Origin: Comamonas sp.
GTDB lineage: Bacteria; Pseudomonadota; Gammaproteobacteria; Burkholderiales; Burkholderiaceae_C
Direction of reading: 5' to 3'
Length of the DNA: 64,000 bases
Assembly: GCA_031277805.1 (NCBI GenBank)
Contig: JAITLR010000027.1
Coordinates: 124,001-188,000, forward strand
The notes beneath the pieces are model-generated. The model searched no databases, was not told the origin of the DNA, and worked only from the letters and a program-made list of their open reading frames with translations. This document shows positions 56,376-61,628 of the stretch, piece after piece; position 1 is the stretch's first letter, and every line of letters begins with the position of its first letter. The position numbers and the translations under genes are program-made.

Positions 56376-56603
56376 CAGGAAATGAGCCGAAGCCCGGTTT
56401 CTGGCATATGCCGGAAGAAAAAGGCCTGAGACCTGAGATAAAGGTTCTGGAAGTAAATCCCTGAGCTACCCAAAATAAATGCAAACCCGTATCTCGCCAA
56501 TGTGAGCGACAGCTTTTATCGTCTTTGCAAGATTCAGAAAGGGTTCATCGGCTATAAACACTTCATTCTTGAAACAAGAAGATACATGTAAGAGGTGGAG
56601 GCA

Positions 56604-58409
56604 ATGGCGGTATTAATACCCGCGCTCGGCAGTTGCGCGGGGCGGATGACCAGCGGAGAAAAACGGCTGGCAGAACGTTTGCAGCAAAAACTCGAAAACG
56701 ATTATTTGCTGTGGTGGGATGTGCCGATTGGCCCCAAGCAGACGCGGCCCGATTTTGTGGTGGTGCACCCGCGCCGGGGTGCGCTGATTCTGGAAACCAA
56801 GGATTGGCATCTGGAAACCATTTGCAAGGCCACGCGTGAATATTTCGAGATTCTCGACAGCGGTACCGGCCAGCCCAAGGTGGTGATGAGCCCGCTGCAG
56901 CAGGCACGTCACTGCGCCATTCAGGTCATCAACGCACTGGAGCGCGATCCGCAACTGGTGCAGGGCGAAGGCCCGCACCAAGGCAAACTGGCTTTTCCCT
57001 GGGGCCATGGCGTGGTCTTCACCCGAATCACGCGCAAGCAGTTTGATGCGGCGGGCCTGGGCGATGCATTGCCCGGCCACCTGGTCATCTGCCAGGACGA
57101 AATGGTCGAAGCTGTGGACGCTGAAGCCTTTCAGCAGCGGCTGTGGAATATGTTCCCCCACAGCTTTGGGCGTGCCATCAGCCTGCCTCAGCTGGATCGC
57201 ATCCGTTGGATTCTTTTTCCTGAAATTCGCGTGCCTCAGCAGCAAAACCTGTTTGGCGAAGAGGTGCATGACGAGGAAGACCTGCCCGACATCATGCGCG
57301 TCATGGACCTGCAGCAAGAGCAACTGGCACGCAGCCTGGGCGACGGCCACCGCGTCATCCATGGCGTGGCGGGCTCGGGCAAGACCATGATCCTCGGCTA
57401 CCGCGCCGAGCATCTGGCGCAGACCCAGACTGCGGACAGCAAGCCGATTCTTGTGCTTTGCTACAACGAGCCGCTGGCCGTGAAACTGGCCGCAGGCATG
57501 GCGGCCAAAGGACTGTCCGAACGTGTGCATGTCGTGCACTGGGACAAATGGACGCGTGCGCAACTCACCGCCTACAACCTCTACACGCTAGAGCTGGATG
57601 CGCTGCATGTAAGCAAGAAATTTGACGAGATTGCGCGCAGTGTCATCAAGGGCGTGGATGACAAGCACATTCCGGCAGGCCAGTACCACGCCGTGCTGAT
57701 CGACGAAGGCCACGACTTTGCGCCCGAATGGCTGCGCCTGGTCACGCAGATGGTGGACCCCAGCACCAACAGCCTGCTGCTGCTCTATGACGACGCGCAA
57801 AGCATTTACGACCGGGGTCAGAAGCGCAACTTCAGCCTCAAAAGCGTGGGCATACAGGCGCCCGGTCGCACCACCATCCTCAAGATCAACTACCGCAACA
57901 CGCGCCAGATTCTGCAACTGGCCCACCGCGTGGCGGGCGACATGCTCACGCCCGAAGACGCCAAGGACGAAGACGGCATCCCGCTCTTGAAGCCCCTGAG
58001 CTGTGGCCGCGAAGGCCCAGAGCCCATCGTCATCGACCTGCCCACCTTGCCCGCCCGCGCAGGCCGCGTGGCAGACCTGCTGGCCGACCAGCATGCCCAA
58101 GGCCATGCCTGGGGCGAAATGGCCGTGCTATGCCGGCACAAGGACGAAATGCTGGTCTGCGCCGATGCCCTGCGCCGCAAAGGCTTGCCTTACCGCGTGC
58201 GCCAGAAGTCCGGCGACTTCAAACCCGAACACGATTCCATCAAGGTCATGACCATGCATGCGAGCAAAGGGCTGGAATGGCCTGTTGTCGCTGTTGTTAC
58301 TTCGGAGGAAGAGCGCAAGGCGAGGGATGTGAAGAAGGATGGGACGTTGGAGGCTCGGTTGGTTTATGTGGCTTCGACGCGAGCAACTGGTCTGGCAATT
58401 TCCGCTTGA
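56604..58409 (+). CDS. NERD-domain UvrD/REP-like superfamily 1 helicase
   Basis: About 601 residues. N-terminal nuclease-related domain: RPDFVVVHPRRGALILETKDW (about 46-66, shown in part) matches the D...ExK core of NERD nucleases. Helicase motifs: Walker A GVAGSGKT (about 250), Walker B VLIDEGHDF, LYDDAQSIYD, YRNTRQI, and motif V/VI VMTMHASKGLEW and RLVYVASTRAT. It stops only seven residues after that last motif, shorter than usual, and codon choice shifts in the last about 45 codons. Start 56604 follows GGAGG; GTG 56595 is the alternative. The next gene begins 19 bp later. Confidence 0.85.
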   Translation: MAVLIPALGSCAGRMTSGEKRLAERLQQKLENDYLLWWDVPIGPKQTRPDFVVVHPRRGALILETKDWHLETICKATREYFEILDSGTGQPKVVMSPLQQARHCAIQVINALERDPQLVQGEGPHQGKLAFPWGHGVVFTRITRKQFDAAGLGDALPGHLVICQDEMVEAVDAEAFQQRLWNMFPHSFGRAISLPQLDRIRWILFPEIRVPQQQNLFGEEVHDEEDLPDIMRVMDLQQEQLARSLGDGHRVIHGVAGSGKTMILGYRAEHLAQTQTADSKPILVLCYNEPLAVKLAAGMAAKGLSERVHVVHWDKWTRAQLTAYNLYTLELDALHVSKKFDEIARSVIKGVDDKHIPAGQYHAVLIDEGHDFAPEWLRLVTQMVDPSTNSLLLLYDDAQSIYDRGQKRNFSLKSVGIQAPGRTTILKINYRNTRQILQLAHRVAGDMLTPEDAKDEDGIPLLKPLSCGREGPEPIVIDLPTLPARAGRVADLLADQHAQGHAWGEMAVLCRHKDEMLVCADALRRKGLPYRVRQKSGDFKPEHDSIKVMTMHASKGLEWPVVAVVTSEEERKARDVKKDGTLEARLVYVASTRATGLAISA

Positions 58410-58428: not shown

Positions 58429-59049
58429 ATGGCAGAAATTATTGATTTGGTTAATGGCAATAATATTTTGTATTCATTGATTGCAGGTGTTTTATCGACA
58501 ATCATTGCTGGATTTATTTTTTTCTTATTTAAAGATGCTGTTTTTAAAAAGCCAGATTTTAGTGGAAGATTTTTTCTTAAAGTTATTGTTTATGATTCAA
58601 CTCTGAATCCGTACAAAGGAATGGAATTGCATTTTTTAGTACATATTGCCCCAAAAGGAAATGAATTTATAGGTGGGGGCGAACGAATATATGAAGATTC
58701 GTCGCTGGGAAAAAATTTTCCTCATATTATTCATTACATGGGAGATAGTAAAATTCCCATGAAAATTAACGGAGAATATAGTAAAAGGATTTTTTTGAAA
58801 GATGATTTTATTTTAATGTGCGAGATAACATCAAAAGATAGAATTTCTCATATGGTAGTTAATTTTAAAGTGCCGTTTTTTTATGACTTGAAAGATTTTT
58901 CTTTGCTTGAGGGGACTTTTACATGGAGTGTCGCAAACAAGAGTGGCGTAGCATATTTGAGTACTTCCATGTTTAATCAAAAGGAGGCAACTCATGGAAA
59001 GTTGGCTGTAGATAAGGGGCTTTCTAAGTGCAAAGAAATCTCGCCATAA
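58429..59049 (+). CDS. Unknown membrane-anchored beta-rich protein (AT-rich islet)
   Basis: A 206-residue protein with no family I can name. One N-terminal membrane helix (about 13-35, ILYSLIAGVLSTIIAGFIFF) is followed by a lysine-rich stop and then a domain of alternating hydrophobic strands and turns (FSGRFFLKVIVYD, IGGGERIYED, TFTWSVANKSGVAYLS near 168). The strand-rich, single-domain look suggests a lipocalin-like or Cap15-like barrel, but this is impression only. DNA is strongly AT-rich, unlike all flanking genes, indicating transfer. It overlaps the next gene by 22 bases. Confidence 0.7.
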   Translation: MAEIIDLVNGNNILYSLIAGVLSTIIAGFIFFLFKDAVFKKPDFSGRFFLKVIVYDSTLNPYKGMELHFLVHIAPKGNEFIGGGERIYEDSSLGKNFPHIIHYMGDSKIPMKINGEYSKRIFLKDDFILMCEITSKDRISHMVVNFKVPFFYDLKDFSLLEGTFTWSVANKSGVAYLSTSMFNQKEATHGKLAVDKGLSKCKEISP

Positions 59050-59654
59050 ATCTGCTTTATTTTCCTTTTAGTGTGTTCTTTTATTTGTTTGCAATTGCTT
59101 TACTGAAAATTCATAGACGATTTGAGATTGATTTTCAAATTCTTGAGAAAAATATAAGAAATTCAGAGCTTTGTGAAGGAAAAATAGAATTTGTGAATAA
59201 ATTAATTCTCGCGGAAGATCATAGGTTTTTAAGCCATTTTGGAGTTGATTTCATAGCAATGTCGAGGGCCATTTATTCAACAAAAATAAAAGGAGTTTTT
59301 CAAGGGGCTAGCACAATAGAGCAGCAATTAACTCGAACTATAACTGCAAGGTATGAAAGAACTTTGAGAAGAAAGTTGCGAGAGCAATTGTTGGCTGTTT
59401 TGATTTCTAGAAAATTCTGTAAGTATTTGATCGCTCAATGTTATCTTGAAAATGCATATTTTGGTCACGGAATTAAGGGGATGGGGATGGCCCTGAGGAC
59501 TTTGGATAATAATGAGTGCGATGATTTTTGTGAGTTTTTAGTATCTTTGCTTAAATATCCAAAACCTAAATTTTATAGTAATGAGTGGGATGAGAAAATA
59601 AAAAATAGAATCTCATATATTAAAAAAAGATATATTAAATACTGCTGTCAATAG
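59028..59654 (+). CDS. Stand-alone GT51 peptidoglycan glycosyltransferase (AT-rich islet)
   Basis: A 208-residue monofunctional transglycosylase. Membrane anchor at about 8-27; motif 1 EDHRFLSHFG (63-72) with catalytic Glu63; motif 2 QGASTIEQQLTR (92-103); motif 3 RRKLRE (114-119); motif 4 YLENAYFGHG; motif 5 SLLKYPKP. All five GT51 motifs are present, so it should polymerise lipid II. It is not like the GC-rich host PBP in this window. GTG start at 59028 with AGGGG nine bases upstream, overlapping the upstream gene by 22 bases. AT-rich and foreign-looking. Confidence 0.82.
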   Translation: MQRNLAINLLYFPFSVFFYLFAIALLKIHRRFEIDFQILEKNIRNSELCEGKIEFVNKLILAEDHRFLSHFGVDFIAMSRAIYSTKIKGVFQGASTIEQQLTRTITARYERTLRRKLREQLLAVLISRKFCKYLIAQCYLENAYFGHGIKGMGMALRTLDNNECDDFCEFLVSLLKYPKPKFYSNEWDEKIKNRISYIKKRYIKYCCQ

Positions 59655-59704
59655 CTCATGGTGTATCAATTTTGAGACTGTTAGCTGGCCTATTTTCTGC
59701 TGAC

Positions 59705-60305
59705 AGAAAGTAGGCAAAGAGCCGGCCCTTACTGCCCCGGTCCCTACGTTTCGCTATGGCAAACCTGCGCCGTCAATTTCTTTTGGCTGTACGGTAAAAC
59801 TCACTTCGAGCTTCGCACTCCGTTCAAACACGTTGCCGTAAAAGTGATGACGAGGCAGTTGCACTCTGCGGTGCAACTGCGCGCCACAAGAGGCTGCCGT
59901 CACAGACGTGGGCACAAGGGGCAATACTGGGAGCCAACAGCCAGATAGTTTCTTTGTATTTCTGAGAGCTGTTACCGCAGTCTGAATAAGCGCTAGAGGC
60001 TAATTTCGTCATAACTCTCGCAGGCCACCCGCACCCGTTCCACCCGTCTGGCTGCGCCTGCGGCACGCTGTTCGGGCTGCGGGCATTGGCACCGGAGAGT
60101 GCCAATGCATCGTGATCTGACTTGCGGCAACGTGTTTGAGCGGAGTGCGTCAGCACGCAGCGAGTTTTGCCGCACCGCAGACTGAATGGCGTGACGCAGG
60201 TTTGCCCGGAGCGAAGCGCAGGGACGCAGACAATCGGGTAGTGTTCTTTGCTTACTTTCTTGCACGAGCAAGAAAGTGAGTCGTCCGCCGGGGCGAAATC
60301 CCGGC
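59705..60305 (+). repeat. Large nested inverted-repeat, probably structured non-coding element
   Basis: Four arm pairs nest in order: 59705-59719 with 60246-60260, 59740-59769 with 60195-60225, 59793-59808 with 60156-60171, and 59815-59838 with 60125-60148. The innermost has 24 of 24 pairs when G-U is allowed on the plus-strand RNA. Local 10-bp hairpins lie at 59855-59880, 60083-60108 and 60254-60277 (the last competes with the outer arm). No credible ORF. Fills most of the 59655-60481 gap. Confidence 0.7.
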
Positions 60306-60423
60306 CTCTGCCCCCAGCAGAAAGCAAGATGAATTTTGATAGCTGCCTACGCTTGATAGATAAGGGAAAGAGGCACATTTGACTCAAACCTACAGTCGCG
60401 CAGCAACCCAACAGAGCACCCAT

Positions 60424-60459
60424 AAAAAATGCCACCCAGCAATCTGAGTGGCATTTTTT
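60424..60459. terminator. Bidirectional terminator beside the HPF-family gene
   Basis: AAAAAATGCCAC (60424-60435) pairs perfectly with GTGGCATTTTTT (60448-60459). It ends the minus-strand gene at 60482 and blocks read-through from the AT-rich islet. Confidence 0.9.
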
Positions 60460-60481
60460 GAGAGTGTACTAACGAAGGCCA

Positions 60482-60859
60482 TCAAGCCGTCGCGGCATTC
60501 TCCGCACTGGGGTCATCCACACCCCTCACGCTTTCGCGCAGATTCTTGTCCTTGAGCTTGCCCAAGTCTGTTTCCACAGCACGTTTGAGCTTGTCGATGG
60601 CCGCGCTAAAGGCCTCCTTGACCTTTTCCGCTTCGGCGTTAACCGCAATGGGCGGTCGGCCCGTGGCTCGTGTTTCCAGTACGCAGCGTTTGCCCGGGCC
60701 TCCGGTGGATTTGAGGGCATCGACTCCTGTGAGGAAGACCTCCACACGCACCACGTATTCCTTCAGGCGGGCCAATTTGCTATTGATCTCCTCCTGTGCC
60801 CATTGCGCCAGAGACTCACCACCCTGGATGGAATCGTCGGCATGAACCTGTACTTGCAT
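60482..60859 (-). CDS. HPF/RaiA family ribosome-associated protein
   Basis: A 125-residue ribosome hibernation/translation-inhibitor family protein. It begins MQVQVHADDS, has the central strand RVEVFLTG and the TRATGRPPIAV segment typical of the short HPF/YfiA fold, then a helix EKVKEAFSAAIDKLKRAVE and a short acidic tail. Such proteins bind idle 30S subunits. AGGAGG seven bases before the ATG at 60859 makes the start clear; the longer frame to 60949 is rejected. The 325 bp upstream hold no gene. Confidence 0.82.
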   Translation of the reverse strand: MQVQVHADDSIQGGESLAQWAQEEINSKLARLKEYVVRVEVFLTGVDALKSTGGPGKRCVLETRATGRPPIAVNAEAEKVKEAFSAAIDKLKRAVETDLGKLKDKNLRESVRGVDDPSAENAATA

Positions 60860-61140
60860 GCAAATCCTCCTAGTCACCAAATGCCGCACCACTGCGGCGA
60901 AAGAGTTGTCGGGGTACCCTGAAGCGCGTGGCCGAGGAGAGTTGGTCACGCACTCTTGATCGGGTCAGACCATCGTAACGCCAGAATTAGGCCCTGCACA
61001 TCAGGAGTTGTTACGTTAGTTGACCCGAGGGGCTTTTGATCATTGTGCGCAGCCATGGCGCCACTCCAAGCCTGATCTGTCCTCTGAGGGCCTCTTATCT
61101 GCAGGCAGCTTGAGGCAGAGCAAGTCGAGCAGGATGCGGT

Positions 61141-61173
61141 GGTCAGTGCGGACGCTTTTTTGCCGCACTGACC
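61141..61173 (-). terminator. Hairpin after exbD
   Basis: GGTCAGTGCGG (61141-61151) pairs perfectly with CCGCACTGACC (61163-61173), 12 bp past the exbD stop on the minus strand. It lacks a trailing T-run (the T-run is in the loop), so it may stabilise the 3' end more than terminate. Nothing else is seen in 60860-61184. Confidence 0.5.
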
Positions 61174-61184
61174 GTCAGTCACTG

Positions 61185-61628
61185 TCAGCGTGCGGGAGCC
61201 TTGGGCAGTGGATCGGTGACAAAGCCGATGCGTGTCAGGCCTGCTGTGTGGGCCCAACCCATGATTTGCACGACGCGGCCGTAGGGGACGCTGGTGTCGG
61301 CGCGCAGCTGGACTTCGGCCTGCGGGTTGCGCTGGCCCAGGCTTTGCAGTTGCTGCTGCACGGCAGCGTCATCACGGGCGGCTCCTTGCAGCCAGATTTC
61401 ACCCTGCGGGCTGACTTCCAGCATCAGCATGTCGCCTTGGGCGACCTGGGTTTGCGGTGTGGCGGCCTGGGCCTTGGGCAACTGCACGCGCAGGCTGGCG
61501 GCGAGCATGGGCGCGGCGAGGATGAAGATGACGACCAGCACCAGCATCACGTCCACCAGAGGGGTGACGTTGATACTGTTGATGGGGGCATCGCTGCGGG
61601 TGCGGCTGCTCATGCGTCCGAATGACAT
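61185..61628 (-). CDS. exbD: ExbD/TolR family biopolymer transporter
   Basis: A 147-residue inner-membrane protein with one helix near the N-terminus (SINVTPLVDVMLVLVVIFI, Asp in the membrane entrance) and a periplasmic domain ending in GWAHTAGLTRIGFV. With ExbB it forms the proton channel that energises TonB for iron-siderophore and other uptake, or the Tol equivalent. No TonB gene is in the window, so assignment to ExbD over TolR rests on the neighbouring genes dapB and bamE, next to which fur/iron genes often occur. Confidence 0.88.
   Translation of the reverse strand: MSFGRMSSRTRSDAPINSINVTPLVDVMLVLVVIFILAAPMLAASLRVQLPKAQAATPQTQVAQGDMLMLEVSPQGEIWLQGAARDDAAVQQQLQSLGQRNPQAEVQLRADTSVPYGRVVQIMGWAHTAGLTRIGFVTDPLPKAPAR

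Follow-up and report, generated by a model that had tools for sequence, protein, structure and literature searches.

A mobile barrel–GT51 gene pair in Comamonas: a possible defence module whose glycosyltransferase may face the cytosol

Why does a genome that already holds four GT51 genes carry one more, on a small AT-rich islet and joined to a gene of no recognised family? The question is raised by a 64,000-nucleotide stretch of a Comamonas sp. genome (contig JAITLR010000027.1, positions 124,001 to 188,000 of the forward strand; this whole stretch is called the window and its first letter is position 1), in which both open reading frames (ORFs) of the islet were found where the original prediction had placed them, overlapping by 22 bases. 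The pair has a GC content of 31.6%, against 61.8% in the remainder of the 20 kb stretch around it, which bears out the AT-richness noted earlier. The GT51 that the host was said to carry elsewhere in the window also exists; it lies on the minus strand and is one of four other GT51 genes in this genome, which makes the islet GT51 surplus to normal wall synthesis. Our tentative answer is that the islet could well be a mobile two-gene sensor–effector module, most likely an anti-phage one with an abortive outcome. We consider it very probable that the two genes form a real sensor–effector module and probable, with less assurance, that they serve defence. The analysis shifts the reading away from envelope repair and closer to a defence-like module; a second type of partner and a probable cytosolic location are new to it. 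The features of the islet are the following.

58429..59049, plus strand: gene 1, 206 amino acids, one N-terminal membrane helix and a beta-barrel domain, the proposed sensor or gate
58447..58530, plus strand: hydrophobic segment of gene 1, residues 7–34, with two acidic residues before it and four K/R within the 15 residues after it
59028..59654, plus strand: gene 2, a stand-alone GT51 of 208 amino acids, the proposed effector, assigned by Pfam Transgly and clade placement
59028..59049, plus strand: overlap of genes 1 and 2, 22 bases
59037..59105, plus strand: hydrophobic N-terminal stretch of the GT51, residues 4–26, with the central proline Pro13
59214..59216, plus strand: codon of Glu63, first GT51 catalytic glutamate, in motif I, by alignment
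59382..59384, plus strand: codon of Glu119, second GT51 active-site glutamate, in motif III (RKxxE), by alignment

A GT51 clade with two kinds of partner

Gene 2 scored 100.6 bits with Pfam Transgly (E 8.9e-29; cut-off 27 bits) and retains both active-site glutamates, and its earlier assignment as a genuine GT51 therefore stands. Glu63 and Glu119, whose catalytic roles are established in the GT51 literature, were invariant in 16/16 aligned members and both aligned to 2oqo, which the GT51 profile matched at an E of 4.8e-32; the RK and the second Q of motif II were equally invariant in these members. Changes specific to the clade were a KYPxP-type motif V and an R in place of the 2oqo K after QQL. 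In a maximum-likelihood tree of 57 rows, the GT51s of the islet kind with a barrel partner (type A, 11) and those with another partner (type B, 7) formed one group with a support of 100/100, separate from 31 rows of class A penicillin-binding proteins (PBPs) and 8 of MtgA; type A was itself a single group (93/84) and type B was not. The PBPs of the tree were 28 drawn at random of 71 together with the window genome's own, two of these rows being entered twice. Gene 2 scored 66.5 bits with the MtgA equivalog model TIGR02070, whose cut-off is 182.65, and fell outside the MtgA clade. It thus resembles MtgA, the monofunctional biosynthetic transglycosylase, in being a stand-alone GT51 domain, while its separate clade, its cysteines, its proline-broken segment and its mobile partner genes set it apart; with class A PBPs it shares the GT51 motifs and the 2oqo match, but it has no transpeptidase domain, belongs to a separate clade and is not a core gene. 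PADLOC-DB 2.0.0 returned no family for either window gene, for an Escherichia coli copy of the pair or for two type B GT51s.

Gene 1 had been described as belonging to no known family, and indeed no match was found at E values up to 1 in Pfam, NCBIfam or PADLOC, while PHROGs gave just two matches at chance level (E 0.26 and 0.33). It had also been proposed to compare its fold with that of Cap15. The structure model consists of one helix (residues 2–33) followed by a small beta-barrel domain with a Cap15-like fold, and the two-pass membrane element is absent from it, a single helix preceding the barrel. A hydrophobicity scan of nine gene 1 sequences located only the best segment of each. According to the model, gene 1 would therefore share with the S-2TMbeta effectors Cap15 (CBASS) and OptE (Panoptes) a small beta-barrel domain placed after the membrane part, and it differs from them in having one predicted membrane helix instead of two, in lacking a match to their sequence family and in having a GT51 neighbour in all places found except one.

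The constancy of this neighbour had been set beforehand as a test of the module. Searches that started from gene 1 yielded nine strong places in eight genomes, the window counted, and eight of the nine adjoin a GT51, an outcome that does not refute the module; the marginal matches in G988 (E 0.0046) and G1189 (E 0.0083) were kept out of the counts. Within the genus, 2/61 near genomes matched the gene 1 profile (the window's and one relative), which answers the other test set beforehand, as the genes are not a vertically inherited core pair. Among 369 genomes only the window's own copy was found, another set gave two copies in one genome (2 of 398), and there were matches in 6/325 genomes of another order and 3/329 elsewhere, one being marginal in each case. 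From the GT51 side, where 80 of 529 confirmed loci were listed, the listed loci comprised 66 long PBP ORFs, 6 unmatched by the motif search and 8 stand-alone members (L033–L040), of which four carry gene 1 upstream (in Rheinheimera, a proteobacterial metagenome-assembled genome (MAG), Geomonas and Desulfuromusa) and four a nucleotidyltransferase-like protein. The pair persists while the identity of gene 1 to the window's copy drops to 22–32%, and the frames overlap or abut in distant bacteria.

A tblastn search located the two genes as neighbours on an E. coli plasmid, the GT51 being 40.5% identical and gene 1 20.4% (E 0.02 only). The pair was present in 5/5426 E. coli genomes, chromosomal in every case and with 5/5 matches paired: in a P2-like prophage between tail-fibre assembly and tail sheath, in lambdoid prophages between antiterminator and holin, and on an integrative element (these contexts come from four of the five records, hit H79 being left out, and loci L013 and L014 have some neighbours in common). 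Phage P2 carries an exclusion gene close to its tail-fibre genes. The pair also occurred on 5/5 viral contigs. This sporadic presence in prophages, a plasmid and an integrative element agrees with the earlier view of an acquired two-gene module.

The type B partner was found beside the same GT51 clade in seven loci (an Aliarcobacter plasmid, two viral contigs and four MAGs); it has 219–244 residues, carries a GSxRxGxS...SDLD-type motif and is nucleotidyltransferase-like. That one enzyme clade occurs with two unrelated partner genes suggests an effector joined to a sensor.

Several smaller observations concern the pair itself. The overlap was 22 bases in five of eight type A pairs measured, 4 in two and 0 in one. 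A one-base difference from the window makes the two genes abut in its nearest relative, G013, and we rejected the 22-base overlap as proof of descent for this reason. The same one-base length difference gives the C-terminus of gene 1 (58990–59049) another frame in the window than in G013, the GT51 frame being unaffected. One genome (G628) carries two diverged barrel/GT51 pairs at different sites (L142 and L143). A strong gene 1 homologue without a GT51 (L188:8277-8768) lies behind a gene for a small membrane protein and may pair with a different effector. A search of 398 genomes found two relatives of the type B partner (L144:1243-1830 and L145:1444-1992) directly before a different, DUF262-like gene; this suggests another two-gene module, and the type B partner thus seems exchangeable too.

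The side of the membrane

Cysteine content separated the mobile enzymes from housekeeping ones. The mean cysteine count of the 135-residue core was 2.18 for the 11 type A and 1.43 for the 7 type B enzymes, compared with 0.03 for 71 class A PBPs and 0 for 6 housekeeping ORFs under 340 amino acids; a rank test, uncorrected for relatedness, gave 4e-15. Four type A enzymes found later had 0, 1, 1 and 2 core cysteines. We rejected AT-richness as the cause, since 12 of 14 housekeeping GT51s from AT-rich loci have no cysteine and the other two have one.

The N-terminal segments differed as well. A central proline interrupts the hydrophobic stretch in 11/11 type A enzymes compared with 3/75 housekeeping anchors, and in three of the four later members, for which three of the four start positions were set by eye. 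A segment with a Kyte–Doolittle mean of at least 1.8 is present in 75/77 housekeeping GT51s and absent from 6/7 type B enzymes. The anchors of class A PBPs have a net charge of +4.8 in the 15 residues before the segment and −0.3 after it.

A comparable anchor is described for PglC, a monotopic phosphoglycosyl transferase with a polyprenol-linked substrate at the cytosolic face. PglC has a basic N-terminus and a short hydrophobic stretch that a proline, preceded by S/L/I/V, interrupts; the Ser-Pro break and the basic N-terminus make the segment re-entrant and the enzyme stays in the cytosol, and its authors propose that a branched residue followed by Pro may act likewise (PMC6133551). PglC is an unrelated enzyme, and the likeness of type A GT51s to it is limited to the anchor: their hydrophobic segment is proline-broken, with K/R before it or at its start.

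Taken together, the cysteine content, the N-terminal segment and the scarcity of strong anchors in the sister type suggest a cytosol-facing GT51, an orientation we hold to be probable as a statistical reading of the sequences, the flank charges alone not being decisive. The same three lines disfavour envelope repair, one of the roles first proposed.

Proposed action and its alternatives

From what was observed, namely the pairing, the mobile elements, the GT51 clade, the intact active-site residues, the barrel fold model and the cysteine and segment statistics, we infer a chain of steps comprising a cytosolic face, gating, a substrate, cell arrest and phage as the trigger. The product of gene 1 would sit in the inner membrane by its anchor, would expose its Cap15-like barrel to the cytosol, and would hold the GT51 or release it upon an infection signal. 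The GT51 would lie at the cytosolic membrane face through its proline-broken hydrophobic segment and, once released, would consume lipid II, or another lipid-linked precursor, before its outward flip. The polymer and the undecaprenyl carrier would then be trapped inside and wall synthesis would halt, with an abortive outcome. MurJ flips lipid II; most simply, a cytosol-facing enzyme would use lipid II before that flip, draining the carrier and stopping wall growth. The mobile GT51s might thus be inside-out peptidoglycan polymerases of the cytosolic leaflet, under exchangeable sensors (the Cap15-like barrel or the nucleotidyltransferase-like protein), that stop infected cells via pre-flip lipid II, a proposal we regard as possible rather than probable; the combination of sensor–effector module, defence, cytosol-facing GT51 and lipid II substrate is, taken jointly, likewise doubtful. 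The earlier idea that the barrel senses or gates the GT51 gains from the modelled Cap15-like fold, which could sense or gate, the gating itself being our supposition. As for the choice first offered between defence, competition and repair, the sites occupied by the pair provide a defence context, whereas repair loses ground.

Several findings weigh against this account. The cysteine ranges overlap, with none in 2/11 type A and 2/7 type B cores and one in 2/71 PBPs; among the window genome's four housekeeping GT51s three have no cysteine and one has one, counted over a slightly different stretch. Of the later members, G1000 has no core cysteine and G1260 no central proline, and 2/11 type A segments also fall below the 1.8 hydrophobicity mark. 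The charges flanking the type A segments are ambiguous, modestly positive and with K/R on both sides, and the sequences are related, hence the tests are not independent. Downstream of a strong gene 1 homologue in G1052, 8.3 kb of sequence contain no GT51 motif, the contig ending 1.9 kb upstream of it, and no mobile element was noticed by eye at the Rheinheimera (L033) and proteobacterial MAG (L034) loci. No cyclase or cyclic-nucleotide synthase was seen among the annotated or listed neighbours in the window and the E. coli loci, the other loci not being checked singly. Finally, the enrichment of defence families among neighbours is weak evidence.

Solved GT51 relatives are extracytoplasmic enzymes, and the islet GT51 might accordingly work in the periplasm on an MtgA-like N-in/C-out anchor, as a superinfection-exclusion or wall-repair module whose glycan counters the DNA injection or endolysin of rival phages. 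The N-terminal hydrophobic stretch of type A would suit such an anchor, and in lambdoid prophages the pair stands just before the lysis genes. We find this rather unlikely, since the cysteine distribution departs from that of the 77 housekeeping GT51s (even if counts of 0 and 1 occur in both sets), since segment charges and central proline differ from theirs, and since most type B enzymes have no strong anchor and are paired with a nucleotidyltransferase-like, presumably cytosolic, protein. An addiction system, in which the partner holds a GT51 toxin and the pair stabilizes plasmids and prophages rather than defending against phages, seems unlikely: the type A partner is membrane-bound with a barrel of ligand-binding type, and the pair shares its site with PARIS-like defence genes (last section), though both roles are compatible.

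The KYPxP-type motif V and the R in place of the 2oqo K after QQL could also reflect a changed substrate, the enzyme polymerizing another lipid-linked glycan or acting as a modified binder that titrates lipid II. Because the glutamates and the RK and Q residues named above are invariant in 16/16 members, we judge this improbable. It is very improbable that these are ordinary passenger genes with no coupled function; their rarity and sporadic presence (2/61 near genomes and 6/325 in another order, one marginal) would fit passengers, but the pairing is kept at 22–32% identity of gene 1, with frames overlapping or abutting in distant bacteria.

If the cytosolic reading is true, the cell would attack its own wall synthesis with lipid II as the weapon, and this would be immune effector chemistry of a new class; the module would also offer a genetic switch for lipid II pools, and Cap15-like barrels would gain a role outside cyclic-nucleotide operons. 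No GT51 is otherwise known to act on the cytosolic leaflet. In the titles and abstract beginnings of the open-licence PMC literature searched, no GT51 appeared in phage defence, no GT51/barrel pair was mentioned, and no defence effector or GT51 was described as polymerizing lipid II on the cytosolic side. Should the proposed location prove mistaken, there would still be a mobile GT51 clade, found in E. coli prophages and linked to two unrelated but conserved partners, that is undescribed in that literature so far as titles and abstract beginnings tell.

The cassette site behind the helicase

The islet was said to lie directly behind a NERD helicase, and the upstream gene is a NERD-UvrD helicase (PADLOC C3a187, 6e-154); the boundary between the two is, more precisely, the edge of a cassette site with these features.

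56595..58409, plus strand: NERD-UvrD helicase that anchors the cassette site on its left; the terminal codons vary among genomes
59683..60500, plus strand: repeat after the cassette, by blastn
60482..61628, minus strand: right flank of the cassette site, with an hpf-like (60482–60949) and an exbD-like gene (61185–61628)

The helicase is present in 24/53 genomes of the genus, and its site was read in 22 of the 24 (G034 and G006 were left out). In these 22 genomes the helicase reaches a YVAxTR-type motif and then continues in divergent tails, and an AT-rich cassette follows in 12/22, in one of them behind a transposase gene. The GT51 pair is the cassette in two genomes of the genus (G000 and G013). 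The alternatives, of one or two genes, are AriA/AriB-like (4.7e-33 and 2.6e-7), AriA-like (6e-19), NsnB-like (2e-33) and several unmatched ones; ten cassette proteins scanned with PADLOC gave four clear matches, one weak match and five without any. Four genomes have the same right flank and carry four different cassettes, two of them AriA-like, which is the pattern of a defence cassette site, and the 3' end of the helicase looks like the exchange point. Genes like those of PARIS (AriA/AriB) thus occupy the same helicase-bounded site in relatives, their proteins being unrelated to those of the islet. The helicase was rejected as a fixed part of the module: 2/140 neighbour proteins from 18 module loci match its model (the window and G013), and elsewhere in the genus it precedes other cassettes or none.

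Recombinases, integrases, methylases and Fic proteins occur near the 18 module loci, and none of these is among the first 25 of 172 Pfam families around PBP genes, taken as a control (140 of 144 picked proteins, four long ones left out); the module tally covers the first 25 of 137 families. At 1e-20, 61 PADLOC families were found at module loci and 19 in the control, which gives weak support because families and not genes were counted. Rousset et al. place a P2 defence hotspot between gpA and gpQ (PMC9122126). We do not claim this position for the E. coli pair, which sits between tail-fibre assembly and sheath.

At locus L164 (G002), the cassette is similar to the AriA-like cassette of G003 and appears to be separated from the helicase by an IS30-like transposase gene. 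The repeat of about 0.8 kb at 59683–60500, which has inverted matches too, is also present close to sites of this kind at ten or more loci from the genus.
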